From: Dechloromonas sp. A34
Lineage (GTDB): Bacteria; Pseudomonadota; Gammaproteobacteria; Burkholderiales; Rhodocyclaceae
Assembly (NCBI RefSeq): GCF_026261605.1
Contig: NZ_CP102486.1
Location: 992,001-1,056,000, forward strand
Direction: 5' to 3'
Length of the DNA: 64,000 bases
This document shows, piece by piece, positions 1,372-16,183 of the stretch. Position numbers and translations under genes: made by a program. The notes below the pieces were generated by a model that saw only the letters and a list, made by a program, of their open reading frames with translations, had not been told where the DNA came from and ran no database searches. Positions within the stretch are counted from its first letter, which is position 1; every line of letters starts with the position of its first letter.

Positions 1372-1489
1372 TATAGTTGGGAAAATGCCGCATGGTCAAG
1401 GACTAAGCCTTTATTCTCAAAGTGGTTTATTGGAAGCGCTCAGGATTTTTCTGATGCGGCGCAACAACGATGCATGTAGAATTCGCGCC

Positions 1490-1670
1490 GTGTCAGGTGC
1501 TGTGCGAGGTTTCTCCAAGCGCAGTTAAACGGGAAAGCGGTGCGTCTCGCAAGAGACAAATCCGCTGCTGCCCCCGCAACGGTAAGCAAGTGCGGGCGCG
1601 TCAGAATGCCACTGGGTGACAACCTGGGAAGGCGACGCGCCAAGACTTGCGAGCCCGGATACCGGCCTGG
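1490..1670 (+). promoter_or_regulatory. Cobalamin (B12) riboswitch
   Basis: The leader before btuB carries the conserved pieces of the cobalamin aptamer in order: GGTGCTGTGCGAGG near 1495, TTAAACGGGAA near 1525, GCCACTGG near 1608, GGGAAGGCG near 1626, and the closing GAGCCCGGATACCGGCC at 1651-1667. Adenosylcobalamin binding to this element normally shuts off expression of the downstream genes. The start codon of btuB lies about 125 bases further on, leaving room for an expression platform. It is the likely common switch for the plus-strand gene run to 16183. Confidence 0.95.
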
Positions 1671-1793
1671 AACACAAGCGGAAGTGCCACGGGGCTGTGG
1701 TGCCGGTCGTGTGACCTGTCTTTCCTCCCCCATTGCGCTTCCTTGTCCATGCTATTCCGGCATGCGGGGACGCCCGCCGGGAAAGGAAGATCC

Positions 1794-3650
1794 ATGTATC
1801 CACGTTTCAAGCCGCTGGCCGCGCTGCTGCCACTCGTTTTCGCAACCCCGTCGCAAGCCGACACCCCGCTGCTGGTCGCCAGTCTCGACCCGGTGATGGT
1901 CACTGCCACCCGCCAGGAGATGCGCAGCTCGGAATTGCTCTCCGACGTCACCGTCGTCGAAAGCGAAGAACTGAAGCAGGCCGGCAATTCCACGCTGGGC
2001 GAAATCCTGTCGCGCCAGCCCGGCATCGAGTTCTACTCGCAGGGCAGCAATGGGGCGACCGGCAGCGTCTTCATGCGCGGCACGAGTAGCGGCCATACGC
2101 TGGTTCTGGTCGATGGCATGCGCGTCGGTTCGGCCTCGCTGGGGCAGATGTCCTCGTGGTCGCGCATTCCGGCCAGCCAGATCGAACGCATCGAAATCCT
2201 GCGCGGTCCGGCCTCCTCGTTGTACGGCAGCGATGCGATCGGCGGCGTGATCCAGATTTTCACGCGCACCGGCAAGGGTCCGTTCCAGGTCAATGCCGAA
2301 GCCGGCATCGGTTCCTACAACACTTCGACGCTCACTGCCGGTTTTTCGGGCAGTCAGGCCGACTGGCGTTATTCGCTGAATGCCTCGAGCTATCGGACCG
2401 ACGGCTTCAACAGCATCAAGAATCCCGCAAACAGTGCCTACAACAAGGATCGCGACGGCTTCGAGAACCAGAGCCTGAGCGGCAGCCTGGGCTATACCCT
2501 GGCCAAGGGCCACGAGGTCGGCGCCAGCTTCTTCTACAGCGACGGCGAAAGCCAGTACGACAGCGGTACGACCAAGACAGCGGCCGCCAAGGACTACCGC
2601 AACCTGCTGGCGGTCAGCAATTTCTCCACCTATCTGAAGAATGCCTTCACCAGCAACTGGACCAGCACGCTGCGCGCCGGCCATAGCACCGACGATTCGA
2701 AGAACACCACCAACGGCGTGCAGAACTCCTTGTTCCGCACTGACCAGGAACAATACGCCTGGCAGAACGACATCCGGACCGCGGTCGGCAATTTTCTGCT
2801 CGGCATCGAGCGTCTGGACCAGTCGGTTACCGGCACCGGCAATTTTCGCGTCACCGAGCGCACCGTCGATTCGGCGCTGGTCGGCTGGAACGGCAGTTAT
2901 CTGGCGCATCGCCTGCAGGCCAACCTGCGTTACGACAACAATTCGCAGTTCGGTGACAAGGCCACCGGTTCCGTAGCCTATGGCTACCGCCTGAATTCGA
3001 ACTGGCGGGCCAATGTAGGCTACGGCACGGCTTTCAAGGCACCGTCGTTCAACGATCTGTATTTTCCGAAGTCTGGCAAGTTTATCGGCAACCCTGACCT
3101 GCTACCGGAGTCATCACGCAATCGCGAGGCCTCTGTGCATTACGAGTCCGGCTTGCATCACGTCTCCTTGACGTGGTTCTTGAATAGCGTCGAGAACCTG
3201 ATCGTCTGGCCGAGTACCGGAGCTACGATCACGCCGGCGAATGTCAGCAATGCCCGCATCGAGGGTGCAACGCTAGCCTACGAGGGGCAGTTTGCCGGTT
3301 TCGACCTGCTTGCCAACTATAACTATCTCGACCCACGCGATACCGATACCAGTCGCCAACTGCCACGACGGGCCAGCAATTATGGAACGGTTTCGATTGG
3401 CCAGCAGATTGGGGCCTGGGAGTGGCGCGTTGAACAGTTTGCTAGCGACCGCCGTTTCAGCGACGATAAAAATTTGCTGAAACTGCATGGTTACTCGCTG
3501 ACCAATCTCTACGGTGCCTACAATTTTGGCCAGAACTGGTCGGTCTTCGCCCGGATCAACAACCTGTTTGACCGCAACTACGAAGTCGTCGCCGACTTCG
3601 CCACCCCCGGCACCAACGCCTTCGTCGGCGTCCGCTACAGCCCGAAGTAA
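1794..3650 (+). CDS. btuB: TonB-dependent vitamin B12 receptor BtuB
   Basis: About 618 residues. The ATG at 1794 follows GGAAAGGAAGA and gives a clean signal peptide (MYPRFKPLAALLPLVFATPSQA), so in-frame upstream starts inside the riboswitch are rejected. A TonB box-like segment (DPVMVTATR) leads into the plug domain (RQPGIEFYSQGSNGATG, VFMRGTSSGHTLVLVDGMRV, ERIEILRGPASSLYGSDAIGG). The rest is an outer-membrane beta-barrel of normal length. It imports corrinoids across the outer membrane using TonB energy. The riboswitch immediately upstream supports a B12 or corrinoid substrate. Confidence 0.93.
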   Translation: MYPRFKPLAALLPLVFATPSQADTPLLVASLDPVMVTATRQEMRSSELLSDVTVVESEELKQAGNSTLGEILSRQPGIEFYSQGSNGATGSVFMRGTSSGHTLVLVDGMRVGSASLGQMSSWSRIPASQIERIEILRGPASSLYGSDAIGGVIQIFTRTGKGPFQVNAEAGIGSYNTSTLTAGFSGSQADWRYSLNASSYRTDGFNSIKNPANSAYNKDRDGFENQSLSGSLGYTLAKGHEVGASFFYSDGESQYDSGTTKTAAAKDYRNLLAVSNFSTYLKNAFTSNWTSTLRAGHSTDDSKNTTNGVQNSLFRTDQEQYAWQNDIRTAVGNFLLGIERLDQSVTGTGNFRVTERTVDSALVGWNGSYLAHRLQANLRYDNNSQFGDKATGSVAYGYRLNSNWRANVGYGTAFKAPSFNDLYFPKSGKFIGNPDLLPESSRNREASVHYESGLHHVSLTWFLNSVENLIVWPSTGATITPANVSNARIEGATLAYEGQFAGFDLLANYNYLDPRDTDTSRQLPRRASNYGTVSIGQQIGAWEWRVEQFASDRRFSDDKNLLKLHGYSLTNLYGAYNFGQNWSVFARINNLFDRNYEVVADFATPGTNAFVGVRYSPK

Positions 3651-3656
3651 GCCGCC

Positions 3657-4634
3657 ATGCCGACCCGCCGCCGCGCTTTCCTGATTCTGCTCAGCCTCGG
3701 CCTGCTGGCTGCGGCCAGTTTCGGGCTGGCGCTGACGGTGGGTAGCTACAAGGTGGCGCCGGCCGATGTACTGGCCGCCTTGCTCGGCCATGAGGGTGGC
3801 GCCGGCGATGTCGTGCTGCAACTGCGCCTGCCGCGGGCGCTAGCCGGCTTTGCCTGCGGCGGGCTGCTGGCACTGGCCGGAGCGCTGATGCAGGTCCTGC
3901 TCCGTAATCCGCTGGCCGATCCCTATGTGCTGGGTATTTCCGGTGGCGCCGGCGTGGGGGCGATGTTCGGTATTTTACTCAGCCTGCCGGTGATCGGTAT
4001 CGACGGGCTGGCTTTCCTTGGCGCACTCGGCGCCATGTTGCTGGTGTTCGGGCTGGCGCATGGTGACGGCAGCTGGACGCAGACCCGCCTGCTGCTCACC
4101 GGTGTCATCGTCGCCGCCGGCTGCGGCGCGCTGGTCGCGCTGATGCTGGCCATCGCGCCGGAGCACAAGCTGCGTGGCATGTTGTTCTGGCTGATGGGCG
4201 ACCTCGGCCAGAGCGGCCAGTGGTGGCCGCCCGTCGCCGCATTGGGCGTCGCCCTGATTTTTGCCATGCCCTTCGCCCGCGAACTGAACTTGCTGGCGCG
4301 CGGCCTGATGCAGGCGCAGGCCCTGGGCGTGGCGGTCAACCGGCTGCGCTACGCGATCTATCTGCTTGCTTCGCTGGCCACCGCCGCCTCGGTGACGACG
4401 GCCGGCTCGATCGGCTTCGTCGGCCTCGTCGTGCCGCACCTGGTGCGGTTGACCACCGGCAACGACCAGCGCCTGCTATTGCCGGCCTCGGTGCTGGCCG
4501 GTGGTTCGCTGCTCGTGCTGGCCGATACGCTGGCCCGCACCATCATCGCGCCGCAGCAGTTGCCGGTCGGCGTGCTGACGGCGCTGATCGGTGTCCCGGT
4601 TTTCCTCTTCCTGTTATCCAGGCAGCCGAAATGA
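3657..4634 (+). CDS. FecCD-family ABC permease, probable corrinoid transporter (BtuC-like)
   Basis: This 325-residue polytopic membrane protein has the FecCD/BtuC signatures: LRLPRALAGFACGGLLALAG, QVLLRNPLADPYVLGISGGA near the N-terminus, and GSIGFVGLVVPHLVRL in the last third. It would form the inner-membrane channel of an ABC importer. It starts six bases after btuB and overlaps the ATPase gene by ATGA, so translation is probably coupled. No BtuF-type binding protein is encoded in the run, so the import system is incomplete here or borrows one from elsewhere. Confidence 0.92.
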   Translation: MPTRRRAFLILLSLGLLAAASFGLALTVGSYKVAPADVLAALLGHEGGAGDVVLQLRLPRALAGFACGGLLALAGALMQVLLRNPLADPYVLGISGGAGVGAMFGILLSLPVIGIDGLAFLGALGAMLLVFGLAHGDGSWTQTRLLLTGVIVAAGCGALVALMLAIAPEHKLRGMLFWLMGDLGQSGQWWPPVAALGVALIFAMPFARELNLLARGLMQAQALGVAVNRLRYAIYLLASLATAASVTTAGSIGFVGLVVPHLVRLTTGNDQRLLLPASVLAGGSLLVLADTLARTIIAPQQLPVGVLTALIGVPVFLFLLSRQPK

Positions 4635-5403
4635 GCCGGCCCTTGCTCGAAGCCCGGCAACTGGTCGTCGAAGTCGGCGGGCGTTGCGTCGTCGACCGCC
4701 TTGACGTGGCCGTCACCGCCGGCGAACGGCTGGCCATCCTCGGTCGCAACGGCGCTGGCAAATCGACGTTGTTGTCGACGCTGGCCGGTTTGCGTCCGGC
4801 GGCGGGCGGCGCCGTGCTGCTCGACGGCGAGGATTGCGCCCTGCTGCATCCGCGCCAGGCGGCCTTGCGCCGGCCTGGCTGGGGCAGTTCCAGGCCGATC
4901 CCTTTGGCTCGACGGTGCTCGAAACCGCAATCACCGGCCGCCACCCGCACCTCGGGCGCTGGGACTGGGAAAGCACGCGCGACGGCGAACTGGCGCGCGC
5001 CGCCTTGCAGGCCGTCGGCTTGCAGGGCATGGAGGCGCGGCAGATCCACACGCTCTCCGGCGGCGAACGCCAGCGCCTGGCGATCGCCACGCTGCTGACC
5101 CAGGCGGCGCCGCTCTACCTGCTCGACGAACCGCTGTCCCACCTCGACCTCAATCATCAAATGGCGGTGCTCGACCTGTTTGCCGGCACCGCGCGCGAGG
5201 GGGGCGCCGGCGTCGTCATGGTCCTGCACGACCCGGCTCTGGCCCACCGCTTCTGCGACCGTGCCCTGCTGCTGTACGGCGACGGTTGCACCGAAAGCGG
5301 CCCGGTCGACAGCATTTTGACGGCTGCCAAGCTGTCCGAACTCTACGGCTATGGCCTGCGGCAGATCGAAGATCGCGGCCATCGCTGCTTCATTCCGGAG
5401 TAA
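4631..5403 (+). CDS. ABC transporter ATP-binding protein, BtuD/FecE-like (frame broken near 4872)
   Basis: The ATG at 4631 overlaps the permease stop. The first frame gives LLEARQLVVEVGG and Walker A GRNGAGKST. The frame then changes near 4872, and the second frame gives FGSTVLETAITGRHPHLG, the signature LSGGERQRLA, Walker B LYLLDEPLSHLDL and the switch histidine region VMVLHDPAL. One extra G in the GG at 4872-4873 would restore a single protein of about 257 residues. As written, the product would be cut at about 155 residues. The same type of break occurs in other genes of this window, so I read it as a sequence error. It powers the upstream permease. Confidence 0.85.
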
Positions 5404-5405
5404 AT

Positions 5406-5993
5406 ATGATTTCCCACGAACAACGCATGCAGAAAAAGAAGGCCGTCATCGACGGCAAGATCGCCGGGGCGCAGGAAGAGCGCGGCGTGCTGGTGATCAA
5501 TACCGGCAACGGCAAAGGCAAGTCCTCGGCCGCCTTCGGCGTCGTCGCCCGCGCCCTCGGTCACGGCCTCAAGGTCGGCGTCGTGCAGTTCGTCAAGGGG
5601 CGTTCGGACACCGGCGAAGAAGCCTTTTTCCGGCAGCAGCCGAATGTCGCCTGGCACGTTGGCGGCGAAGGCTTTACCTGGGAAACCCAGGACAAGGAGC
5701 GCGACGCCCGGGCGGCACAGCACGCCTGGAGTGTCGCCTGCGAACACCTGGTCAACCCGGAAATCGGACTCGTCGTGCTCGACGAAATGACCTATGCCTT
5801 CAAGTACGGCTGGCTGGAACTCGACGAAGTCATCGCCAAGCTGCTGGCACGTCCGCACATGCAGCACGTCATCATCACCGGCCGCGCCGCACCGCAGTCC
5901 CTGCGCGACGTTGCCGACACGGTCAGCGACATCGGAATGGAGAAGCACGCCTTCCAGAGCGGCGTCAAGGCCATGCCCGGCCTCGAGTTCTGA
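5406..5993 (+). CDS. cobO: Cob(I)yrinic acid a,c-diamide adenosyltransferase
   Basis: This 195-residue protein has the CobO/BtuR P-loop INTGNGKGKSSAAFGV near residue 30. It also carries VGVVQFVKGR, the acidic segment VVLDEMTYAFKYGWLELDEV and VIITGRAAP, and ends GVKAMPGLEF. It transfers the adenosyl group of ATP to the cobalt of reduced corrinoids in the cytoplasm. The gene begins three bases after the ATPase stop. Sitting between uptake genes and corrinoid-modifying genes, it would adenosylate imported corrinoids for salvage or synthesis. Confidence 0.95.
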   Translation: MISHEQRMQKKKAVIDGKIAGAQEERGVLVINTGNGKGKSSAAFGVVARALGHGLKVGVVQFVKGRSDTGEEAFFRQQPNVAWHVGGEGFTWETQDKERDARAAQHAWSVACEHLVNPEIGLVVLDEMTYAFKYGWLELDEVIAKLLARPHMQHVIITGRAAPQSLRDVADTVSDIGMEKHAFQSGVKAMPGLEF

Positions 5994-6003
5994 GCCCGGA
6001 CCG

Positions 6004-7629
6004 ATGACGATCCTCTGCCGTTTCGCCTGCCTGCTGCTCCTTTCGGCTGCCGCCTGGGCGGCGGAAGCCGATGTCCTGTCCAGTATCCCGGCCAATATTC
6101 GGGCCGAGGCGCAGATCGTCCGCAGCGAGCGCGACGGGTACTGGGAAAAAGTGCTGCTGGTCAGTTTTCCCGAAGCGCGGCGGACGCTGTCGACCTCCGG
6201 TGGCTTGCTCGACGCGCGGGCGGCGCTGAACCATGCCGGCCACCCGCTGCTCTGGCAAAAGGTCGGCATGCGCTTCATGGGCCAGGATGGCCGGGGCGGC
6301 AAGGCTTATGCCGCACATGTCCACGAAAACATGGCCAAGCTATTGCATCTGGACAAGTCGGCGGTCGCCCGGATGTCCACGGCGGCCGACATGGACAACC
6401 TGGCGATCGTCACCAAGAGCTACGGCCCGCTGACCGTCACCGTGCTGGCGACAGCCGGTGCCAAGACCAATGCCATCCGCACCGGCGTGGACGAAGGGCG
6501 CTATATCGAGGACGAACTGCCGGCCGGCACGATCAACATCATAGTGCTGACCAATATCCGGCTGACCGACGCCGCGCTGGCGCGCGCCTTGATTACCGTG
6601 ACCGAAGGCAAGACGGCTGCCTTGCAGGATTTGAAAGTCCCGAGCACCTACACACCAGACGTGCAGGCGACGGGCACCGGTACCGACAGCATCATCGTCG
6701 TCTCCGGCACCATGGGGCCACAGGCTAGTTATACCGGCGGCCACAGCCGGATCGGCGAACTGATCGGCAAGGCCAGCTACGAAGCGGTGCTCGAAGCGCT
6801 CGGCAAGCAGAACGGCTTTTTCCTAGCGGGAGCCAAGCGTTTTGCGGCAGGTCCGGAAGCGCCGGCCAAGGCCCTGGATGCCCTGCGCATCGCCCTGCTT
6901 CATCTCGATGCCGTGCCCGGCGATGTCGCCGGCAACCGCGCCCGCATCGAGGCCGGCATCGCCGAGGCGGCCGGCCAGGGCGCCGACTGGATCATGACGC
7001 CGGAACTGGCCGAAACCGGCTACAACTTCGCGAGCCGCATCGGCACCGGCTGGATCGAGCCCTTTCCCGATGCCTGGATGAGCTCGCTGGCGGCGGTCGC
7101 CCGCGACAACCGGGTGGCGCTCTTCGTCGGCTTTGCCGAGCGCGATGGAAAGACTGGCAAATTCCATAATAGCGTCGCGGTGATCGACCGTGCCGGCGTG
7201 ATCCAGGGCGCCTACCGCAAGCAGCGGGTACATGGCGGCGCCGAAAGCTGGTCCACGCCCGGCGCCGGCGGCGCCCCCTTCATGGTCGATGGCATTCCGG
7301 TTGGCCTACTGATCTGCGCCGACACTTACAAGCCGGAACCGGCCGCTGACTATCGCCGGCAAGGCGCCGCCATCCTGCTCGCCCCGGCCAACTGGCCGCC
7401 GGTCGACGCCATGGGGCCGGGTGATCTCTGGGAGCGGCGCAGCCGCGAAACCGGCCTGCCGCTGATCGTCAACAACCGTACCGGGCGTGAGCCGGAACTC
7501 GATTTCTCGCGTGGCGAAAGCGTCGTCGCGGCCGGCGGCGAGCGGCTGTTCTCGTTCAGCTCCAGTCAGAGCCGCCTGTTTTATGTCGATTGGGATCGCG
7601 CTCAAGGCTTCAGCCAGCCTGCCCGATGA
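6004..7629 (+). CDS. Exported fusion: CbiZ-type adenosylcobinamide amidohydrolase + nitrilase/carbon-nitrogen hydrolase
   Basis: A 541-residue two-domain protein. Residues 1-20 (MTILCRFACLLLLSAAAWAA) look like a Sec signal peptide. Residues about 30-270 match CbiZ: DNLAIVTKSYGPLTVTVLAT, AGAKTNAIRTG, GTINIIVLTNIRLTDAAL, TEGKTAAL and ATGTGTDSIIVVSG. Residues about 290-535 are a nitrilase-superfamily domain with the Glu-Lys-Cys set visible at E334 (TPELAETGY), K406 (YRKQRVHGG) and C438 (LLICADTY). CbiZ cleaves the amide of adenosylcobinamide to give adenosylcobyric acid and is normally cytoplasmic; nitrilase relatives hydrolyse amides or nitriles. The export signal and the fusion are unusual. 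The stop codon overlaps the CobN-like start. Confidence 0.85.
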   Translation: MTILCRFACLLLLSAAAWAAEADVLSSIPANIRAEAQIVRSERDGYWEKVLLVSFPEARRTLSTSGGLLDARAALNHAGHPLLWQKVGMRFMGQDGRGGKAYAAHVHENMAKLLHLDKSAVARMSTAADMDNLAIVTKSYGPLTVTVLATAGAKTNAIRTGVDEGRYIEDELPAGTINIIVLTNIRLTDAALARALITVTEGKTAALQDLKVPSTYTPDVQATGTGTDSIIVVSGTMGPQASYTGGHSRIGELIGKASYEAVLEALGKQNGFFLAGAKRFAAGPEAPAKALDALRIALLHLDAVPGDVAGNRARIEAGIAEAAGQGADWIMTPELAETGYNFASRIGTGWIEPFPDAWMSSLAAVARDNRVALFVGFAERDGKTGKFHNSVAVIDRAGVIQGAYRKQRVHGGAESWSTPGAGGAPFMVDGIPVGLLICADTYKPEPAADYRRQGAAILLAPANWPPVDAMGPGDLWERRSRETGLPLIVNNRTGREPELDFSRGESVVAAGGERLFSFSSSQSRLFYVDWDRAQGFSQPAR

Positions 7630-10600
7630 GCCGGATGGGAGTCGTGCGCCGCCTGGTCGGCCTGCTGGCGCTTGCCATGCCGCTGCTGGCGCAGGCGGCG
7701 ACCCTGTTCGGGGTCGTCACCGAGCGCGCCGCACCGACCGCCATCGAAGCGGCGCACCGCCATCTGGCCGGGCATCCGAACGACCGCATCCTGCTGCGCA
7801 CGCCGGCCCAGATGATGGCGGCCAGCGACCGACAACTTGGCCAGTGGCTCGGCCAGGCTGACAGCGTGCTCGCCGTTTCGGTTTTCGGCGACCCGGCGCG
7901 CCGGCTGAAGGATGTGCTGGCACGGCACGCCAAGGCGCAGACGTCCATCCTGGCGATGAACGGCGAAGCCAGCCTGAACCTGATGAGCCGCGACGCGAGC
8001 GGCAACCTTAATCATTTCCCGGCCGAAACCCTGCGCCTGCTCGCCGCCGAGGAGCCGCCCGCCACCGCCCTGGCCGCCGCCGAGGCGCTGCCGACGGCCC
8101 GCCGCTGGCTGGCGGCGCGCCGCCTCTGGCAGGCCGGCGGGACGGAAAACACGGCCGCGCTGTTCGGCCATCTGCTCGACCCACGGACGAGCCTGCCGGC
8201 GGCCAAACCGGAGCCCCGGCTGCGCCTGCGCGTCGGTGAGCGGGAATTGAGCGACGCGGTGGCCTGGGGGCAGGCCGCCAGCCTCGGGCTGACGGCGGTG
8301 CCGACCGTGGTCGTCCTCGATCTTGCCAACATGGATGGCAGTGCCCCGGCCGCCCTCTGTCAGCGCATCAACCAGCAAGGCCTGCCCTGTGTGCAAGTGC
8401 TGAGCCGCTGGGGCGGCGCCTCGCGCCAGGCGCTGGAACGGCTGCCCGAACTGATTGCCCCGGCCCGGCCGGCGGCGCTGGTCGTGCTGCAGGATTTCGT
8501 CGTCGGCGCCGCCGAAGGGCGCGAGGCGGTGACCGAAGCCTTCAAGAAAATCGACGTGCCGGTGTTCAAGGCCATCCGCCTGAGCGAGCGTTTGGCGACG
8601 CAATGGCGGCTGTCGCCGGACGGCCTGCCGGCCGACTCGGTGCAGTACCGCGTCGCTCTGCCCGAGTTGCAGGGCATCGGCCAGCCGATCGTCGTCTCGG
8701 CACTCGGCAAGGCCCAGCCCGACCGCATGACCGGCATCGAGAGCCGGCCGCCGGTCACGCTGGCCGCCGAAGTCGACCGTCTGGCAGCCCGTATCGGCCG
8801 CTGGCTGACCTTGCGCGCCAAGGCCAACCGCGACAAGCGGATCGCCGTCATCTATTACAACCACCCGCCGGGCCGGCAGAACATCGGTGCCGACAATCTC
8901 GACGTGCCGGCTTCGCTGTTCGACATGTTGCAGGCGCTGAAGGCGGCCGGCTACGAGGTCGGCGAGCTGCCGGCCTCGCCCGAAGCGCTGCTCGACCGGA
9001 TCATGGCGCACGGCGTCAATCTGCCGGAAGACCGCGCCGCGCTGCGCGAATTGAGCGCTGCGGTCGACGGGGTCAAGGCTGCCGACTACGCCCGCTGGTT
9101 TGCGACATTGCCGGCGCGGGTGCAGGGTGAAATGACCGATGGTCCGCTCGGCCGCCTGCTCGCCGAAGTACTGGAAGCCGAGCAGGCCAACGAAAAGGCG
9201 GTCGGCCGCAAACGCGTCGATGCCGTGCTCAAGGAACTGCATCACCTGGTCGAGGGCGCCGACCATCCGAAACGCCAGGCGGCGATCCGCGACCTCAAGG
9301 CTTTGGAAGAAGGCTATCTCGCCTGCCTGGCCGATAGGCCCACCCGCCGTTGCGCCACGCAGGCCCCGCTCAGCCGCCGGCTGACCGGCTACGGCATCGA
9401 AGGCCTCAAAGGCTGGGGCGCCGCGCCGGGTAAGGTGATGGTCGAAGGCGGCCGGCTGCTGGTGCCGGGCATGACTTTCGGCAACGTCTTCATCGGCCCG
9501 CAGCCGCCGCGCGGCTGGGAAGTCGACGAGGAACTGCTGCATGCCAACACCAGCGTCACGCCGCCGCACCAGTACCTGGCCTTCTACCACTGGCTGCGCG
9601 ACCGCTTCCGGGCCGATGCTGTGGTCCATGTCGGTCGCCATTCGACCTACGAATTCCTGCCCGGCAAGGCCGTCGGCCTGGCCGCCGACGACTACCCGAG
9701 CCTGATCGCCGCCGATCTGCCCGGCATCTACCCCTACATTGTCGATGGCGTCGGCGAAGGCACGCAGGCCAAGCGCCGTGGCCTGGCCGTGATGGTCGAC
9801 CACCTGACCCCGCCGCTCGCCGCGACGCCGCTCTACGACCAGCTGCTGGCCTTGCGCCAGGTGGTCGAGAGCTTCGAGGCGGCCTCCAGCGAATCGCTCA
9901 AGGCCCAGGCGGCGCGGACCATGCGCGAGCAGGTCGTGGCCCTCAACCTCAAGGCCGAGCTCGAAGCCTCGATGGCCGACGTGCTGGCGGTGCGCGGCAT
10001 CGGTTTCGAGGCAGCCGACGACGACCTGCTGGCGCACGAAGTCGGCCATTACCTGACCAAACTGCAGGAAAAGTTCATGCCCTACGGTCTGCACATTTTC
10101 GGCCGCAACTGGAGCCAGCAAGCGCTGGACCTGATGCTCGATTCGATGAAGAAGGGCGGCATCGACGATCCGGCCATTTCCGCCAAACTCGCCGATTCGC
10201 CGCGCCTCGAAATGATTGGCCTGCTGGCCGGGCTGGACGGCCGCTACATCCCGCCGGGCAAGGGCAACGACCCGCTGCGCTCGCCGGAATCGCTGCCCAC
10301 CGGCCGCAATTTCCACGCCGTCGATGGCGACATCCTGCCGACCCGGGTCGGCTACCAACTTGGCGAAAAGCTGGCCGCGAAATCGGTGGCGCACGCCCCG
10401 AAGGAAGTCCCCTTGGGGGAGAGCAAATCGGATAAAGGCTCCGAAGGCGTCATCCTCTGGGCCTCGGATGCCGTGCGCGACGAAGGCGTCATGGTCGCCT
10501 TCGCGCTGGCCATGATGGGCGCGGAGCCGGTGTGGAACGCCCGCGGCATCGTCACCGACGTCCGCCTCAAGCCCGGCGCCGTGCGGCGCGACGTGATCGT

Positions 10601-11963
10601 CACCACCTCGGGCCTGTTCCGCGATCTCTACCCCAACCTCAACAACCTGATCGACCGCGCCGGCCGCCTGGCGCTGGCCGCCTCCGCCGCCGGCCTGGCC
10701 GAACGGCGACCGGAACTCAAGGAGGCGCTGGCCGCCGCCCTTGGCCCGGTATCGACCGCCCAGTGGGGCAGCGAGCCGGTCGGCGACAACCGCGTCGCCC
10801 GCGAATGGCAGAACCGCCTCGCCGCCCTCGAACAATCCGGCATGCCACGCCAGGAGGCCGGGCGCGCCGCCGCCCAGCGCATTTTTGGCGATGCGCCGGG
10901 CGCCTACGGCACCGGCGTCAATCGGCTGACCGAGCGCTCCGGCGCCTGGCGCGAACGTGACGAAATCGGCCGCGCCTACCGCAACCGCATGGGCCACGCC
11001 TACGGCCTCGACGAATCCGGCGAAGCCAGTCACGCCGCCTTCGACTCGGCGCTCGACGGTATCGCCCGCACCTATCACGGCCGGGCCAGCAACCTCTACG
11101 GTCTGCTCGACAACAACGACGCCTTCGACTACCTGGGCGGCCTGTCGCTAGCCATCGAAGGCCGTACCGGCCAGCCGCCGGAAGCCATGATCCTGCAGCA
11201 TGCCGAACCGGGCCGGGCCGATGTCGAGCCGCTGACCACGGCGCTGCTCGGCGAACTGCGTGGCCGCTTCCTCAACCCCGCCTGGCTGAAGCCGCTGATG
11301 GGCCACGGCTACGCCGGGGCGCGGACGATGGGCACCGAATTCCTCGAAAACCTCTGGGGCTGGCAGGTAACTCGCCCCGACCTGGTCAAGAACTGGGCCT
11401 GGGACGAGGTCAAGGCGGTCTATTTCGACGATTCGCAAAAGCTCGGCCTACCCGCTTTCCTCGGCCAGGGCCACAACGCCCACGTCAAGGCGCACATGCT
11501 GGCGATTTTCATGGTCGCCGCCGAAAAGGGCTTCTGGAAAGCTGACGCCGCCACCATCAAGCAGATGGGCGGCGAACTGGCCCGCCTGGTCGCCAAGAAC
11601 GGCCTGCCCGGCAGCGGCCACACGGCTCCCAATCACCCGATGTGGCAATGGCTGGCCCCGCAGCTCGACGCCGCCGAAGCCCTGGCCCTGGGTGTGACGC
11701 TGGCCAAGGCGCGCGGTGAAGTCGTTGCGGCAGCCCCAGCGGTCCGGGCAACCGCTACGGCCAATGCCCAATCGCCGGCAAATACCGGCGAACCCGCCGC
11801 TGCCCCGCCGGCGCCCGAAGCCGCCCCGCGCTATTACGAACTGACCGAACCCCCAGCGCCGGCGAGCGATCTCGTCGGCCGCACCCTCAACCTGCTCGGC
11901 CTGTTGGCCGCCAGCCTCGCCCTGTTCACGCTCGGCCTGTGGCGCGGCCGGCAGACCGCGTAA
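7626..11963 (+). CDS. CobN-like chelatase, exported and C-terminally membrane-anchored
   Basis: About 1445 residues. The ATG at 7626 overlaps the previous stop and gives a signal peptide (VVRRLVGLLALAMPLLAQAA). The body is a CobN/BchH-type large chelatase subunit: RIAVIYYNHPPGRQNIGADN, LLHANTSVTPPHQYLAFYHW, AVVHVGRHSTYEFLPGKAVG, PTGRNFHAVDGDILPTRVGY, TSGLFRDLYPNLNNLIDRA, ASNLYGLLDNNDAFDYLGGL and GQGHNAHVKAHMLAIF. After a Pro/Ala-rich linker the last 30 residues hold one transmembrane helix (LNLLGLLAASLALFTLGLW). Classical CobN is cytoplasmic and works with the ATPase subunits CobS and CobT; neither is encoded here. Topology suggests a periplasmic catalytic body. The chelated or removed metal, and whether the substrate is a corrinoid or another tetrapyrrole, are unknown. 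Confidence 0.88.
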   Translation: MSRMGVVRRLVGLLALAMPLLAQAATLFGVVTERAAPTAIEAAHRHLAGHPNDRILLRTPAQMMAASDRQLGQWLGQADSVLAVSVFGDPARRLKDVLARHAKAQTSILAMNGEASLNLMSRDASGNLNHFPAETLRLLAAEEPPATALAAAEALPTARRWLAARRLWQAGGTENTAALFGHLLDPRTSLPAAKPEPRLRLRVGERELSDAVAWGQAASLGLTAVPTVVVLDLANMDGSAPAALCQRINQQGLPCVQVLSRWGGASRQALERLPELIAPARPAALVVLQDFVVGAAEGREAVTEAFKKIDVPVFKAIRLSERLATQWRLSPDGLPADSVQYRVALPELQGIGQPIVVSALGKAQPDRMTGIESRPPVTLAAEVDRLAARIGRWLTLRAKANRDKRIAVIYYNHPPGRQNIGADNLDVPASLFDMLQALKAAGYEVGELPASPEALLDRIMAHGVNLPEDRAALRELSAAVDGVKAADYARWFATLPARVQGEMTDGPLGRLLAEVLEAEQANEKAVGRKRVDAVLKELHHLVEGADHPKRQAAIRDLKALEEGYLACLADRPTRRCATQAPLSRRLTGYGIEGLKGWGAAPGKVMVEGGRLLVPGMTFGNVFIGPQPPRGWEVDEELLHANTSVTPPHQYLAFYHWLRDRFRADAVVHVGRHSTYEFLPGKAVGLAADDYPSLIAADLPGIYPYIVDGVGEGTQAKRRGLAVMVDHLTPPLAATPLYDQLLALRQVVESFEAASSESLKAQAARTMREQVVALNLKAELEASMADVLAVRGIGFEAADDDLLAHEVGHYLTKLQEKFMPYGLHIFGRNWSQQALDLMLDSMKKGGIDDPAISAKLADSPRLEMIGLLAGLDGRYIPPGKGNDPLRSPESLPTGRNFHAVDGDILPTRVGYQLGEKLAAKSVAHAPKEVPLGESKSDKGSEGVILWASDAVRDEGVMVAFALAMMGAEPVWNARGIVTDVRLKPGAVRRDVIVTTSGLFRDLYPNLNNLIDRAGRLALAASAAGLAERRPELKEALAAALGPVSTAQWGSEPVGDNRVAREWQNRLAALEQSGMPRQEAGRAAAQRIFGDAPGAYGTGVNRLTERSGAWRERDEIGRAYRNRMGHAYGLDESGEASHAAFDSALDGIARTYHGRASNLYGLLDNNDAFDYLGGLSLAIEGRTGQPPEAMILQHAEPGRADVEPLTTALLGELRGRFLNPAWLKPLMGHGYAGARTMGTEFLENLWGWQVTRPDLVKNWAWDEVKAVYFDDSQKLGLPAFLGQGHNAHVKAHMLAIFMVAAEKGFWKADAATIKQMGGELARLVAKNGLPGSGHTAPNHPMWQWLAPQLDAAEALALGVTLAKARGEVVAAAPAVRATATANAQSPANTGEPAAAPPAPEAAPRYYELTEPPAPASDLVGRTLNLLGLLAASLALFTLGLWRGRQTA

Positions 11964-11979
11964 CCCCTAGGAGTCCCTG

Positions 11980-12414
11980 ATGACCGACCCGCACTCTTTC
12001 GCCTGGCTGCACGATGCCGTCACCTGGCTGCTCACCCCGGCCCTCGCCGCCTTGCTGCTGGCCTGCGCTATCGCGCTGATCGAGGCCGGCCTCGCCGTCG
12101 GCGAGCGCCTCTCCGGCCTCGCCCGGCTACAGGCCGCCGGCGACGTGGCGCGAGTCCAGGCCGTCGCCCGCCACCGGCTGGAGCGCGCCGACCTGCTCGC
12201 CCGCATCCCGCCCATGCTCGGCCTGATGGCCACCATCATCCCGCTCGGACCCGGTCTCGCCGCCCTCGGCAAGGGCGATCCGGCACAACTGGCCAGCGCC
12301 GTCACCGTCGCCTTCGACGCCACCGTGCTCGGCCTGGTCGCCGGTATCGCCGGCCTAGTCATCGGCAAGCTGCGCCGCCGCTGGTACGAAGAAGTGCTGG
12401 AGAACATGGAATGA
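11980..12414 (+). CDS. MotA/TolQ/ExbB-like proton channel family protein
   Basis: This 144-residue protein has three predicted membrane helices: LLTPALAALLLACAIALIEA, the PPMLGLMATIIPLGPGLAAL segment, and VTVAFDATVLGLVAGIAGLV before a basic tail. The Pro/Gly-rich second and Thr-containing third helices match the ExbB/TolQ/MotA pore helices, but the protein is shorter than typical ExbB. It follows the CobN-like gene by 16 bases and overlaps the DUF2149 gene by four. Its position suggests it forms an ion-conducting motor with DUF2149 that drives the CobN-like protein or the neighbouring TonB receptor. Confidence 0.85.
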   Translation: MTDPHSFAWLHDAVTWLLTPALAALLLACAIALIEAGLAVGERLSGLARLQAAGDVARVQAVARHRLERADLLARIPPMLGLMATIIPLGPGLAALGKGDPAQLASAVTVAFDATVLGLVAGIAGLVIGKLRRRWYEEVLENME

Positions 12415-12740
12415 GCGAGTTGCAAGCCCGTAAACGGCTGCGCCTCTACTCGAAGCTCGACGCCCGCTTCGACGACCGCGACGAGGACCCTCGCGCCAGC
12501 CTGGTCAACCTGGTCGATGTCATGCTGGTCTTCGCCTGCGGCCTGCTCGCCGCGCTGGCGGCCGGCACGCAGCAGGCCCTGAAAGCCCCGAAGCCGGTCG
12601 AAAAAGGCCAGCAGATCGAACGCCCGGCCAGCGGCATCACGCAGAACGGCAGCGGCTACGACCGGGTCGGCGAGGTGTTTCGCGATCCGAAGACCGGGAA
12701 ACTGGTCCTGATCGAACCGGCCGCCCAGCCGGCACAGTAA
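12411..12740 (+). CDS. DUF2149 protein with TolR/ExbD-like membrane anchor
   Basis: This 109-residue protein has a cytoplasmic basic N-terminus, one membrane helix and a periplasmic tail. The helix opening ASLVNLVDVMLVFACGLLAA closely parallels INVVPYIDVMLVLLVIFMV of the TolR encoded at 31.1-31.5 kb, including the membrane aspartate thought to carry protons in TolR/ExbD. The tail contains GYDRVGEVFRDPKTGKLVLI. DUF2149 has no established biochemical function. Paired with the ExbB-like gene upstream, I infer a TolR-like stator or rotor role for the CobN-like machine. Confidence 0.85.
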   Translation: MSELQARKRLRLYSKLDARFDDRDEDPRASLVNLVDVMLVFACGLLAALAAGTQQALKAPKPVEKGQQIERPASGITQNGSGYDRVGEVFRDPKTGKLVLIEPAAQPAQ

Positions 12741-12754
12741 TTATTTTTTCAGCC

Positions 12755-14847
12755 ATGAAGCACGCCTTATATCTCACGGCCACCCTCGTCGCCGTGCTTG
12801 CCAGCTCCGGTAGCGCCCAGGCCGCCGGCATCCCGACCCTCCAGGAAGTCACCGTCAACAGTGGCGCCCAAGACCTGACCGGCGTCGCCGACTCGGCGAC
12901 CGAAGGTACTGTCACCGCCAAGCAACTGGCCAACCGCCCGCTGCTGCGCCCGGCCGAAGTGCTCGAAACCGTGCCCGGCATGATCGTCACCCAGCATTCC
13001 GGCGACGGCAAGGCCAACCAGTATTTCCTGCGCGGCTTCAACCTCGACCATGGCAGCGACTTCTCGACCCACCTGATGGGGATGCCCGTCAACATGGTCA
13101 GTCACGCCCATGGCCAGGGCTACATGGACCTCAATTTCTTGATTCCCGAGCTGGTCGCCGGCATCAAGTACCGCAAGGGTGTCTACGCGGCGGAGGACGG
13201 CGATTTCGCGACCACCGGCAGCGCCCGCATCGACTATCTACGCTGGCTCGACAAGAGCTTTGTGGATATCGGCCTCGGTCAGCACCACTACCGCCGCCTA
13301 CTCGCCGCCGGTGGCCATAGCCAGGGCGACCTCAACCTGCTCGGCGCCCTTGAGGTGGCCGGCAACGACGGTCCGTGGGATCAGCCGGAGAATCTGGAAA
13401 AATTCAACGGTGTACTGCGTCTGACCTCGGGCACCGCCGCCAACGGCTTCGCGCTGACCGGCATGGCCTACCAGGCCGACTGGACGGCCACCGAACATGT
13501 GCCGGAACGCGCCATCACCAACGGCGAAATCGGCCGCTATGGCGCGTTGTCCGCTAACGATGGCGGCCATACCCACCGCTACAGCCTGTCCGGCGACTGG
13601 GCGAAAACCACCGAGGGCGGGGCCGGCAAGACCAACCTCTATGTCATCGACTACGGCCTGAACCTGTTCTCGGCGCCTTCCGGCTTCATCAGCGGCGCGC
13701 AGGGCGACCAGCATGAGCAGGCCGACCAGCGCACGCTCTGGGGCGGCCAGGCCAGCCAGAGCTGGCTTCTCGGCCCGGCCTGGCGGGACACCGAGCTCAC
13801 GGCCGGCCTGCAACTGCGCCACGACCGGATCGGCAAGGTCGGCCTGTACACCACCGAAAACCGTCGCCGTACCGGCATCGTGCGCGAAGACCGCATCGAG
13901 GAAACCGCCATCGCCGCGCTCTTCGAGGCGCGCACGCAATGGACCGGCTGGCTGCGTACCAGCCTCGGCCTGCGCCGCGACCAGATTCGCGCCCAGGCCA
14001 CCGCGCTGGCCGGCCAGTTCAACCTGGACAACGGCGGCTCGGCCAGCGCCGGGCAGACCAGCCCCAAGCTCGGTGTCGTCTTCGGTCCCTTCCAATTGCT
14101 CGGCCAAACCGAGTTCTACGCCAACTGGGGCCATGGCTTCCATAGCAACGATGCGCGTGGCGCCACGGCGCGCACCAATCCGCAGGACGGCTCGGCGGCC
14201 AAAGCCGTGCCGCTGATCGTCAAGGCCCGGGCAGCGAACTCGGCCTGCGGGTGGCGCCGCTGCGCGGCTGGAACAGCAGCCTGGCGGTCTGGCAGATGGA
14301 ACTGGCTTCGGAACTGGTCTTCATCGGCGACGAAGGGGTGACCGAGCCGAAAGGTGCCTCGCGCCGCCATGGTCTTGAATGGTCGAACTACATCACGCCG
14401 GCCGACGGCTGGATCGTCGATGCCGACCTCGCCTGGTCGCAGGCCCGCTTCCGGGACGCCAACCCGGACAACGGCGGGCGCCACGTACCGAACGCCATCC
14501 CGCTGACCGCCTCGCTCGGCCTCACGGCCGACCACGGCGGCCCGTGGTTCGGCGGCCTGCGCCTGCGCTACCTCGGAGCCTACGCGCTGGAAGAAACCGC
14601 CCAGCAGAAATCGACGGCCTTATGGATGGCCAATCTGAAAGCCGGCTACCGGGTCAGCCCCAAGTTACAGCTGACGCTGGACGTGCTCAACCTGTTCGAC
14701 CGCAAGGCCAACGACATCGAATACTGGGGTGGCGCCTGCACGCGCGGCGAAACGCTCGGTGGCACCTGCGGCGGCGGCATCGACGGCCGCCTGGTCCACC
14801 CGCTGGAACCGCGCACCGTTCGCCTCGGCCTGCGCGCCAGCTTCTGA
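12755..14847 (+). CDS. TonB-dependent receptor linked to CobN-like chelatase (frame broken at 14229-14231)
   Basis: The first frame encodes a signal peptide (MKHALYLTATLVAVLASSGS) and a plug with PAEVLETVPGMIVTQHSGDG and FLRGFNLDHGSDFSTHLMGM. It then has the His-rich NMVSHAHGQGYMDLNFLIPE and a long barrel. At 14229-14231 the reading frame jumps. The next frame continues smoothly through VAPLRGWNSSLAVWQMELAS and VLNLFDRKANDIEYW and ends VRLGLRASF, a typical terminal barrel strand. One more G in the GGG run restores a protein of about 697 residues. It is a second outer-membrane receptor in the B12-riboswitch run, probably for the substrate of the CobN-like system. Confidence 0.85.
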
Positions 14848-14902
14848 GCCGGCGCCGGCCCGGCTATCATCCCTCCCGCCAACGACAACCGAAACCACAT
14901 CC

Positions 14903-16183
14903 ATGCCCAGTTGCCCCGCGCTTCTTATTGCCGCCCCGGCCTCCGGCCAGGGCAAGACTACCGTCACCGCCGCGCTGGCTCGCCTGCATGCCCGCCAGGG
15001 GCGGCGCGTCACCGTCTTCAAGTGCGGTCCGGATTTTCTCGACCCGCAGATCCACGCCTTCGCCAGCGGCCGACCCTGCCAGAACCTGGATCTCGGCATG
15101 TGCGGCGAGGCCGACGCCCAGTGGCGCTTGGCCCGCGCCGCGGCCGACTCCGACCTCATTCTGGTCGAAGGCGTCATGGGCCTGTTCGACGGCACGCCCT
15201 CCGCGGCCGATATCGCACAGCGCTTCGGCATTCCGGTCATGGCCCTGATCGACGCCGGGGCGATGGCCCAGACCTTCGGTGCCGTCGCCCACGGTCTGGC
15301 GACCTACCGGCCCGGCCTGCCCTTTGCCGGCGTGCTCGCCAACCGGGTGGGCAGCGCCCGCCATACCGAGATGCTGCGCGACAGCCTGTCGCCCGGCATG
15401 GGCTGGTTCGGCGCCCTGCCGAAAAGCGGCGACAGCCTGCCTGAACGCCACCTCGGGCTGCTGCAGGCGGCCGAGATCACTGATCTCGCGGCTCGCCTCG
15501 ACAAGCTGGCCGATGCGCTGGCCGCCAGCGCCAGTGTCGATCTGCCACCGGCCGTCGAATTCGCCGAAGAGCCACCACAGGCCGTCGAAGCGCGGCTCGC
15601 CGGCCGGCGCATCGCCATCGCCCGTGACGCGGCCTATGGCTTCATCTATCCGGCCAACCTGGAAACCCTCAAGGACCTCGGCGCCGAACTGCACTTCTTC
15701 TCGCCGGTGGCCGGCGACCCGCTGCCCGACTGCGATGCGGTCTGGCTGCCCGGCGGCTACCCGGAATTGCACGCCGCCGCGCTGTCTGCCAACCAGCCGC
15801 TATGGACGGCGCTGCTCGCCCATGTCGATGCCGGCAAGCCGTTGCTCGCCGAATGCGGCGGCATGATGAGCCTGTTCGAAGAAGTCGTGGACAAGACCGG
15901 CCAGAGCCACCGCTTCGCCGGCCTGCTACCCGGCCGTTCGGTGATGCAGCAGCGCCTGGCGGCGCTCGGTACGCAGTTCGTCGAGCTTCCGGAAGGCCGC
16001 CTGGCCGGTCACACTTTTCATTACTCGAAGAGCGAAACGCCCTTGAACCCGCTCGTGCGCTCCATGACGCCCGACGGCCGGGCCGGCGAGGCGGTCTTTC
16101 GCCGCCAGCGGCTGACCGCCTCCTACGTCCATTTGTACTTCCCATCCAATCCCGCCGCCATCGGCGAACTGCTCGGTCCCTGA
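14903..16183 (+). CDS. cobB: Cobyrinate a,c-diamide synthase
   Basis: This 426-residue protein is CobB/CbiA in full. The N-terminal ATP domain has APASGQGKTTVTAALARLHA, the CGPDFLDPQIH motif and VEGVMGLFDG. The C-terminal class-I glutamine amidotransferase domain has VWLPGGYPELHA, the nucleophile C318 in LLAECGGMM, and the histidine in SYVHLYF. It amidates carboxylates a and c of the corrin ring using glutamine and ATP in the cytoplasm. The in-frame region before 14903 belongs to the TonB receptor, so the ATG at 14903 is chosen. It ends the corrinoid gene run. Confidence 0.93.
   Translation: MPSCPALLIAAPASGQGKTTVTAALARLHARQGRRVTVFKCGPDFLDPQIHAFASGRPCQNLDLGMCGEADAQWRLARAAADSDLILVEGVMGLFDGTPSAADIAQRFGIPVMALIDAGAMAQTFGAVAHGLATYRPGLPFAGVLANRVGSARHTEMLRDSLSPGMGWFGALPKSGDSLPERHLGLLQAAEITDLAARLDKLADALAASASVDLPPAVEFAEEPPQAVEARLAGRRIAIARDAAYGFIYPANLETLKDLGAELHFFSPVAGDPLPDCDAVWLPGGYPELHAAALSANQPLWTALLAHVDAGKPLLAECGGMMSLFEEVVDKTGQSHRFAGLLPGRSVMQQRLAALGTQFVELPEGRLAGHTFHYSKSETPLNPLVRSMTPDGRAGEAVFRRQRLTASYVHLYFPSNPAAIGELLGP

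Follow-up and report, generated by a model that had tools for sequence, protein, structure and literature searches.

A CobN-like protein with predicted membrane anchors beside an ExbB-like/DUF2149 pair: a candidate proton-driven chelatase in a corrinoid-salvage operon of Dechloromonas sp. A34

The DNA analysed here, called the window, is a stretch of 64,000 nucleotides of Dechloromonas sp. A34 (contig NZ_CP102486.1, positions 992,001 to 1,056,000 of the forward strand), part of a single-contig genome of 4.76 Mb, and our subject is a triad of adjoining genes in it that encode a CobN-like protein, an ExbB-like protein and a DUF2149 protein. The CobN-like protein has predicted anchors at both ends and belongs to the clade of HmuS, and its genome encodes neither the ATPase partners CobS and CobT nor CbiC. 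From gene content and alignments we infer coupling to a proton motor, a corrinoid substrate and a direction of metal transfer: the protein would be a BtuS/HmuS-type enzyme worked in the periplasm by the proton-motive force on corrinoids, most likely inserting cobalt, a reading that we hold tentatively and at somewhat less than an even chance.

The CobN-like protein and its clade

Read from its ATG, the CobN-like open reading frame (ORF) encodes 1445 amino acids and is the only CobN of its genome. It has the PF02514 body of classical CobN, scored on the ORF as extended to an upstream TTG at 7590, and falls short of the NCBIfam CobN equivalog cut-offs (at best 588 bits against 1619, and 506 against 822 for TIGR02257). 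An AlphaFold 2 (AF2) model of residues 245-1400, with a predicted local distance difference test score (pLDDT) of 85 and a predicted template modelling score (pTM) of 0.86, matches the structures of HmuS, CobN and ChlH, HmuS being the best Foldseek match. A hydropathy scan (19-residue stretch, threshold 1.6, not a trained predictor) found only two hydrophobic segments, at residues 4-22 and 1416-1434. The best 120 of the 1283 homologues found carry the N-terminal segment in 108 cases, the C-terminal one in 116 and at least one of them in all 120; among the matches listed, the closest come from sources named Rhodocyclales, Azonexus, Noviherbaspirillum and Dechloromonas. For a related CobN, that of locus L022, 119 of 120 homologues among the matches listed have at least one end segment. 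The best interior stretch has a median of 1.5 in the first set and of 1.19 in the L022 set, which makes the threshold unspecific when taken alone; the C-terminal hydropathy of classical CobN reaches at most 0.56 over 78 haloarchaeal rows. The body of the CobN-like protein appears to be extracytoplasmic and anchored at the inner membrane, rather than cytoplasmic like that of classical CobN, and the periplasmic body that the initial annotation of this DNA had read from a signal peptide and a C-terminal anchor is supported as a prediction by hydropathy and by the homologues.

The protein was placed in a tree built from an alignment of 66 rows, which took in four of the 78 haloarchaeal rows and left out L162; after 16 near-copies had been dropped, 50 rows and 1250 columns remained. 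The search was a quick one without bootstrap, L029 and L193 form long branches, and 41 of the 50 rows deviate in composition. By the Shimodaira-Hasegawa-like approximate likelihood-ratio test (SH-aLRT), BchH (3 rows) and classical CobN (8 rows) are each supported at 100 and the motor-linked proteins including HmuS (39 rows) at 99. The B12 branch (7 rows), to which the window's protein belongs, forms a single clade with a support of 100; the tree does not resolve in which order this branch, HmuS and the other members of the motor-linked clade diverged. The label of motor linkage requires three changes on the tree. A kinship with HmuS had been suspected from the gene set, and the phylogeny supports it by placing the protein in the HmuS clade, apart from classical CobN. 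With HmuS of the hmuYRSTUV operon of Bacteroidota it shares the features by which we assign it to the BtuS/HmuS-type clade, namely the grouping in the tree, both end anchors (by hydropathy) and the adjoining ExbB-like and DUF2149 genes, and in addition a TonB receptor and the catalytic histidine.

With the HmuS residue numbers of PMC12583661 placed on Bacteroides finegoldii HmuS (M79, H254, H538), the catalytic His538 is kept in all seven B12-branch rows, as His672 in the window. Unlike HmuS, the window's protein has Val86 and Asp290 in place of the haem ligands Met79 and His254, in a divergent aligned region, and LLDNNDAFDYLGG, with Asp1165, in place of the motif LSLDHxxEFMGG that holds His1209; it differs also in the B12 riboswitch and the cob genes around it. 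Throughout the B12 branch, V or L stands at the Met79 position and D at those of His254 and His1209. D also occupies the His1209 position in 10/10 classical CobN rows, and BchH has H there in two rows of three and Q in the third. As aligned, Asp1165 speaks against a HmuS-like haem site and not for corrin, because most of the other motor-linked rows share the Asp. The candidate role of a haem HmuS was rejected, the haem-specific residues being absent. In place of the superfamily motif HFGTHG, the altered form HxGRHST stands in all of the best 120 of 1283 homologues and in six of the seven B12-branch tree rows, the Marinobacter row beginning with Y.

The ExbB-like/DUF2149 pair and its link to anchored CobN proteins

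The ExbB-like protein scores 36 bits against PF01618 (cut-off 22.9) and has three hydrophobic segments, and its family gives weak matches to ExbB and TolQ structures (E about 1e-3). Its Thr85 and Thr115 align with two conserved threonines of ExbB and TolQ, which we take to line the pore, and Thr85 is invariant in 25/25 aligned ExbB-like rows. The DUF2149 protein has one hydrophobic segment with Asp36 inside it, and this membrane-helix acid is kept in all 28 aligned DUF2149 proteins (Asp in 27, Glu in one); at the matching segment it reads LVDVMLVFAC and the TolR of the window YIDVMLVLLV. The initial description of a MotA/TolQ/ExbB-like and a DUF2149 gene directly downstream of the CobN-like gene thus holds, with PF01618, PF09919 and the TolR-like Asp36. 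The pair resembles ExbB-ExbD and TolQ-TolR in its channel protein, threonines and membrane aspartate pattern; it differs from them in having CobN as its neighbour instead of TonB or TolA, and in the DUF2149 protein, where a Pfam scan at E 0.001 gave DUF2149 only and no ExbD/TolR domain PF02472, and whose profile found no ExbD match in the PDB up to E 10. The DUF2149 protein may work like ExbD, yet it is not an ExbD member by these domain tests. The methanogen set given in PMC9425974 lists DUF2149 as TolQ-linked. The window's TolR lies in a tolQ-tolR-tolA-tolB cluster at about 29.5-33 kb on the minus strand, in which TolR was identified by family match and the rest by eye.

DUF2149 was present in 17 of the 398 genomes of the window's phylum and CobN in all 17 of these, and at 18/18 loci CobN and an ExbB-like gene adjoin DUF2149, a count that starts from the DUF2149 loci and not from the CobN loci. 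In the archaeal phylum of the Halobacteria, DUF2149 was found in 91/294 genomes; the named control Methanosarcina acetivorans was positive for DUF2149 and CobN, and DUF2149 was absent in two haloarchaea with classical CobN. Forty archaeal regions, hand-picked from the DUF2149 places in the 91 positive genomes (one, L171, ends at a contig edge), all have an ExbB-like neighbour, with a CobN-like ORF of more than 900 amino acids in 29, a CobN fragment in one and no CobN in ten. At one region without CobN, L154, the pair adjoins a large exported-looking S-layer protein (PF07752). Because ten of the 40 archaeal pairs stand without CobN, one of them beside the S-layer protein, the ExbB-like/DUF2149 motor is a module that serves other exported proteins too. 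Three archaeal pairs without CobN (L157, L170, L182) have neighbours that resemble those of L154 by eye.

Over all fetched loci, at a fixed hydropathy threshold of 1.5, each of the 52 CobN rows with ExbB-like and DUF2149 genes within 3 kb shows at least one end anchor (45 both, seven one), and 86 of the 89 rows without the pair show none. Motor and anchor are both lacking in all 78 haloarchaeal rows (of 80 haloarchaeal loci, two gave no closed CobN ORF of more than 900 amino acids). The three anchored rows without the pair are those of Marinobacter (N-terminal anchor only), of Streptantibioticus (borderline N-terminal) and of an archaeal CobN that stands second in a tandem, is anchored at both ends and is more than 3 kb away from its motor. 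The fetched plasmid region of Marinobacter sp. M3C (L039) holds a riboswitch, cobB, cobO, cobQ and bluB, with the C-terminal anchor and the motor jointly missing.

Two further loci combine the triad with other genes. The L022 operon, in a genome that is 67% complete and placed in the window's phylum, holds a cobalamin riboswitch, canonical TonB, ExbB and ExbD, BtuF, CbiK, the CobN-like protein, BtuF-CbiZ, DUF2149, the ExbB-like protein, a DUF2162 transporter and a TonB receptor; among the matches listed, its CobN is closest to Desulfobacterales-named proteins. On a plasmid of Runella slithyformis (L043), hypF, hypC, hypD and hypE surround the triad, a TonB receptor and a gene whose annotation is urease accessory protein, a context that suggests a nickel version of the system.

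CobS and CobT, reported initially as missing from the window, were not found in a search of this complete 4.76-Mb genome, and a CobS/CobT pair elsewhere in the genome was accordingly rejected.

Corrinoid substrate, direction of metal transfer and competing explanations

The context points to corrinoids, as had been proposed from the riboswitch: a cobalamin riboswitch stands upstream of a salvage operon in the window (Table 1) and occurs at six of the seven B12-branch loci (scanned for in the window and in 21 non-archaeal loci), and CobB and CobO are encoded nearby at five of six (the window, L034, L035, L037 and L038; not L036, where the contig ends). CbiC/CobH is absent from the window's genome; over the six B12-branch genomes, this one included, CbiC is found in none and CbiB in all. 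Judged by these genes, the B12-branch organisms can rebuild corrinoids but are without the ring-making step common to known routes, and because this step is missing a role of the CobN-like protein in de novo B12 synthesis is unlikely and was rejected. In a related clade, the database protein P0240 has a BtuF-type domain, CbiZ and CobN fused, and by its predicted domains this fusion ties that clade to extracytoplasmic corrinoids. Small similar membrane proteins lie beside the cob genes of L034 (5609-6283), L035 (14089-14697) and L037 (5008-5580 and 16868-17437); we take them to be possibly BtuM-type corrinoid transporters, and a Pfam scan of three of the four gave no match.

In the mechanism that we propose, the C-terminal anchor would tether a class-I tetrapyrrole chelatase body in the periplasm, and the ExbB-like channel and DUF2149 would form a proton-driven motor that replaces the ATPases CobS/CobT. 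Protons passing Asp36 of DUF2149 and the ExbB-like threonines would set DUF2149 in motion, and its short periplasmic tail, or its contact with the CobN anchor, would open and close the chelatase cavity for exchange of ring and metal. The ring would be a corrinoid brought in by TonB receptors, possibly trimmed beforehand by the CbiZ-amidase fusion protein, and the most likely step would be insertion of cobalt into corrinoids that have no metal or carry a wrong one. BtuCD would then import the filled corrinoids, and CobB, CobO and CbiB would rebuild them into a cobamide.

Several observations weigh against this mechanism. HmuS, the nearest studied protein, removes metal, and does so in vitro without the motor and with NADH (PMC12583661); the archaeal pairs without CobN (10/40) point to a general module; and the B12-type CobN of Marinobacter has neither a C-terminal anchor nor a motor in the fetched region. 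These three points weaken the part of the initial proposal, a chelatase or dechelatase run by proton-motive force, in which the pair drives metal transfer; the part that stands, through the archaeal triads and L022, is that the pair is tied to CobN more than to receptors. A Bacteroides fragilis btuS1 btuS2 double mutant still formed protoporphyrin IX (PMC6460266), and CbiK, which is ATP-independent, stands beside CobN in L022, so that the CobN-like protein could be a cobalt supplier there. TonB receptors, identified by similarity to the window's BtuB, lie near 16/18 DUF2149 loci of the phylum, where a receptor role is therefore possible. The second threonine (the Thr115 position) is absent from 8/25 ExbB-like rows; D at the His1209 position is found also in 11/15 other bacterial and 25/29 archaeal motor-linked rows; and the CobN anchors are based on hydropathy, with a threshold that is not specific by itself.

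The same machine could run in reverse, as a proton-motor-assisted dechelatase that strips the cobalt from corrinoids as a cobalt source, much as HmuS of the same clade takes iron from haem (PMC12583661). Possible metal transporters adjoin two relatives (DUF2162 in L022 and the urease-accessory-annotated gene in Runella), L022 has its CbiK as though freed metal were reused, and a similar gene set in Pseudomonas aeruginosa is under Zur (PMC4542158). We nevertheless regard a dechelatase as unlikely. Control is by B12 rather than by cobalt, and stripping a scarce vitamin at low B12 is implausible; without CobS/CobT and CbiC a stripped ring is not refillable by known means; no cobalt transporter is among the operon genes typed, no family search having been aimed at one; and cobalt is described as resisting removal from corrins without destruction of ligand or ring (PMC6771967). 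The same paper describes cobalt-free corrinoids made by some purple sulfur bacteria. Because of the B12 control, the lack of a known refill for the stripped ring and the resistance of cobalt to removal, harvest of cobalt is less likely than its insertion or a correction of the metal.

It is improbable that the CobN fold acts as a corrinoid carrier, which would bind incoming corrinoids and leave the metal unchanged, with the motor driving release or handover to BtuCD. The fusion of BtuF to CbiZ and CobN in P0240 and the change of the superfamily motif would suit such a carrier, as would the co-purification of the corrin substrate with CobN (PMC7689651). Its catalytic histidine, retained in all seven B12-branch rows, and its conserved chelatase body speak for an enzyme instead. 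To our knowledge, ordinary B12 uptake needs no CobN-like protein, which also counts against a carrier.

If the pair energised the neighbouring TonB-dependent receptors, with CobN unrelated to it, the receptors near the phylum loci would be accounted for, and HmuU and HmuV are indeed said to supply the haem receptor with energy (PMC12583661, PMC10100974). The L022 operon, however, has its own canonical TonB, ExbB and ExbD besides the pair, ExbD-family proteins over the cut-off are encoded elsewhere in 6/6 B12-branch genomes (three in the window's genome, one of them the tol-cluster TolR), and no ExbD domain is detectable in DUF2149. Archaea retain the pair with CobN although they lack an outer membrane. 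Since archaeal triads, L022 and the ExbD genes of the B12-branch genomes all disfavour receptor energising as a general role, we consider it quite improbable.

An ATP-dependent cobaltochelatase of the usual kind that works with an atypical AAA partner is very improbable, because the weak ChlID-type matches that exist lie far under the cut-off of 779 bits (at most 31.8 bits in genome G000 and 42.9 over the six B12-branch genomes, 0/6 having such a partner over the cut-off, so that a ChlID-type partner elsewhere was rejected) and occur in 13/14 control genomes too, CobS/CobT are missing from the window's genome and export is predicted for the body.

The periplasmic cobalt insertion that we prefer could be one case of a wider scheme, in which class-I chelatases are run by the proton-motive force, ExbB/DUF2149 replaces the AAA+ partners, cobalt is inserted in the periplasm into scavenged corrinoids, and the same engine serves bacteria for haem and perhaps for ligands of zinc and nickel, and methanogens for tetrapyrroles. 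We would call this wider scheme possible rather than probable.

The salvage operon and related systems

The plus-strand corrinoid-salvage gene set spans 1478 to 16183 (Table 1). The ATG of the CobN-like gene overlaps the stop of the preceding gene and that of the DUF2149 gene the ExbB-like stop, and the three ORFs of the triad are unbroken. The CbiZ-amidase fusion has hydrophobic N-terminal residues 1-19 and two weaker inner stretches, and because it begins with this signal-like segment, corrinoid trimming may occur in the periplasm. For the frame splits of the BtuD-type ATPase gene and the second receptor gene, sequencing error and decay are indistinguishable here. A 6S RNA (52 bits) lies at 626-805 of the window on the minus strand.

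Table 1. Features of the corrinoid-salvage operon, in window coordinates
Feature	Coordinates	Strand	Basis
Cobalamin riboswitch, upstream of operon	1478..1684	+	Rfam RF00174, 113.6 bits, E 1.1e-27
BtuB-type TonB-dependent receptor	1794..3650	+	Pfam Plug and barrel; best NCBIfam TonB-B12, E 3.5e-126, under cut-off
BtuC-type ABC permease	3657..4634	+	Best NCBIfam BtuC, E 3.6e-68, under cut-off
BtuD-type ABC ATPase, split over two frames	4631..5403	+	ORFs; family assigned by eye, without family search
CobO/BtuR corrinoid adenosyltransferase	5406..5993	+	PF02572, E 2.9e-58
CbiZ-carbon-nitrogen hydrolase (amidase) fusion	6004..7629	+	PF01955, E 2.1e-50; PF00795, E 3.8e-25
CobN-like protein, predicted exported, B12 branch of BtuS/HmuS clade	7626..11963	+	PF02514, E 4.5e-242; tree; AF2
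CobN-like signal-like segment (end set by eye)	7626..7697	+	Hydrophobic residues 4-22
His672 codon, equivalent to HmuS catalytic His538	9639..9641	+	Alignment columns
Asp1165 codon, equivalent to HmuS His1209	11118..11120	+	Alignment columns
CobN-like predicted C-terminal membrane anchor	11871..11927	+	Hydrophobic residues 1416-1434
ExbB-like putative proton-channel protein	11980..12414	+	PF01618, E 6.9e-9; alignments
DUF2149 protein, single anchor with Asp36	12411..12740	+	PF09919, E 5.7e-9
Second TonB-dependent receptor, split over two frames	12755..14847	+	Plug and barrel on two ORFs
CobB/CbiA cobyrinic acid a,c-diamide synthase	14903..16183	+	NF002204, 442.8 bits (cut-off 254 exceeded)

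An exported type of CobN is already known, namely BtuS, the third CobN type proposed by Rodionov et al. 2003 as told in PMC6460266, where the Bacteroides BtuS proteins are predicted to be exported, and the B12 branch is a variant of it. The window's protein is like BtuS in being CobN-like and predicted to be exported and anchored; BtuS itself is predicted to act in metalloporphyrin salvage, and that paper's account of it speaks neither of coupling to a motor nor of triads in archaea nor of a B12 branch among corrin auxotrophs (PMC6460266). The BtuS proteins of M. barkeri are reported without a wider operon (PMC10846266), and hmu-like operons with a cobalamin riboswitch exist, for example in B. 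fragilis (PMC10100974). The PA1922-PA1925 operon of P. aeruginosa likewise joins a receptor, CobN, an ExbD-labelled gene and a hypothetical gene, but it is under zinc (Zur) control, and the likeness is drawn from the published description of its genes (PMC4542158). Unlike the window's protein, classical CobN (CobNST) and BchH rows have no C-terminal anchor and no motor, and several stand beside annotated ATPase-type genes, none of which was found here. The triad as it extends across domains, and its meaning for energy coupling, were not found in the literature searched; among the matches listed, no title or abstract opening claims proton-driven chelation by the triad, subscription papers falling largely outside that search.

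What is known of class-I chelatases is that they run on ATP; a clade of bacterial and archaeal members in which a proton-channel pair takes the place of the ATPase would, if true, mean a new source of energy for metal-tetrapyrrole chemistry. With NADH, recombinant HmuS takes iron from haem in the absence of HmuU/HmuV, but for 1-2 turnovers only (PMC12583661), and P. gingivalis HmuS is stimulated by NADH and by an inner membrane fraction, the authors leaving open roles for HmuT, HmuU and HmuV (PMC13227078). A proton motor could explain why the recombinant protein halts, and would question the published view that HmuU and HmuV serve the TonB receptor. It would also give a role to the archaeal CobN proteins, whose use is described as unclear in PMC12583661. 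Corrin auxotrophs, finally, would gain a route to cobalt-free corrinoids, finishing B12 from the metal-free rings of others.

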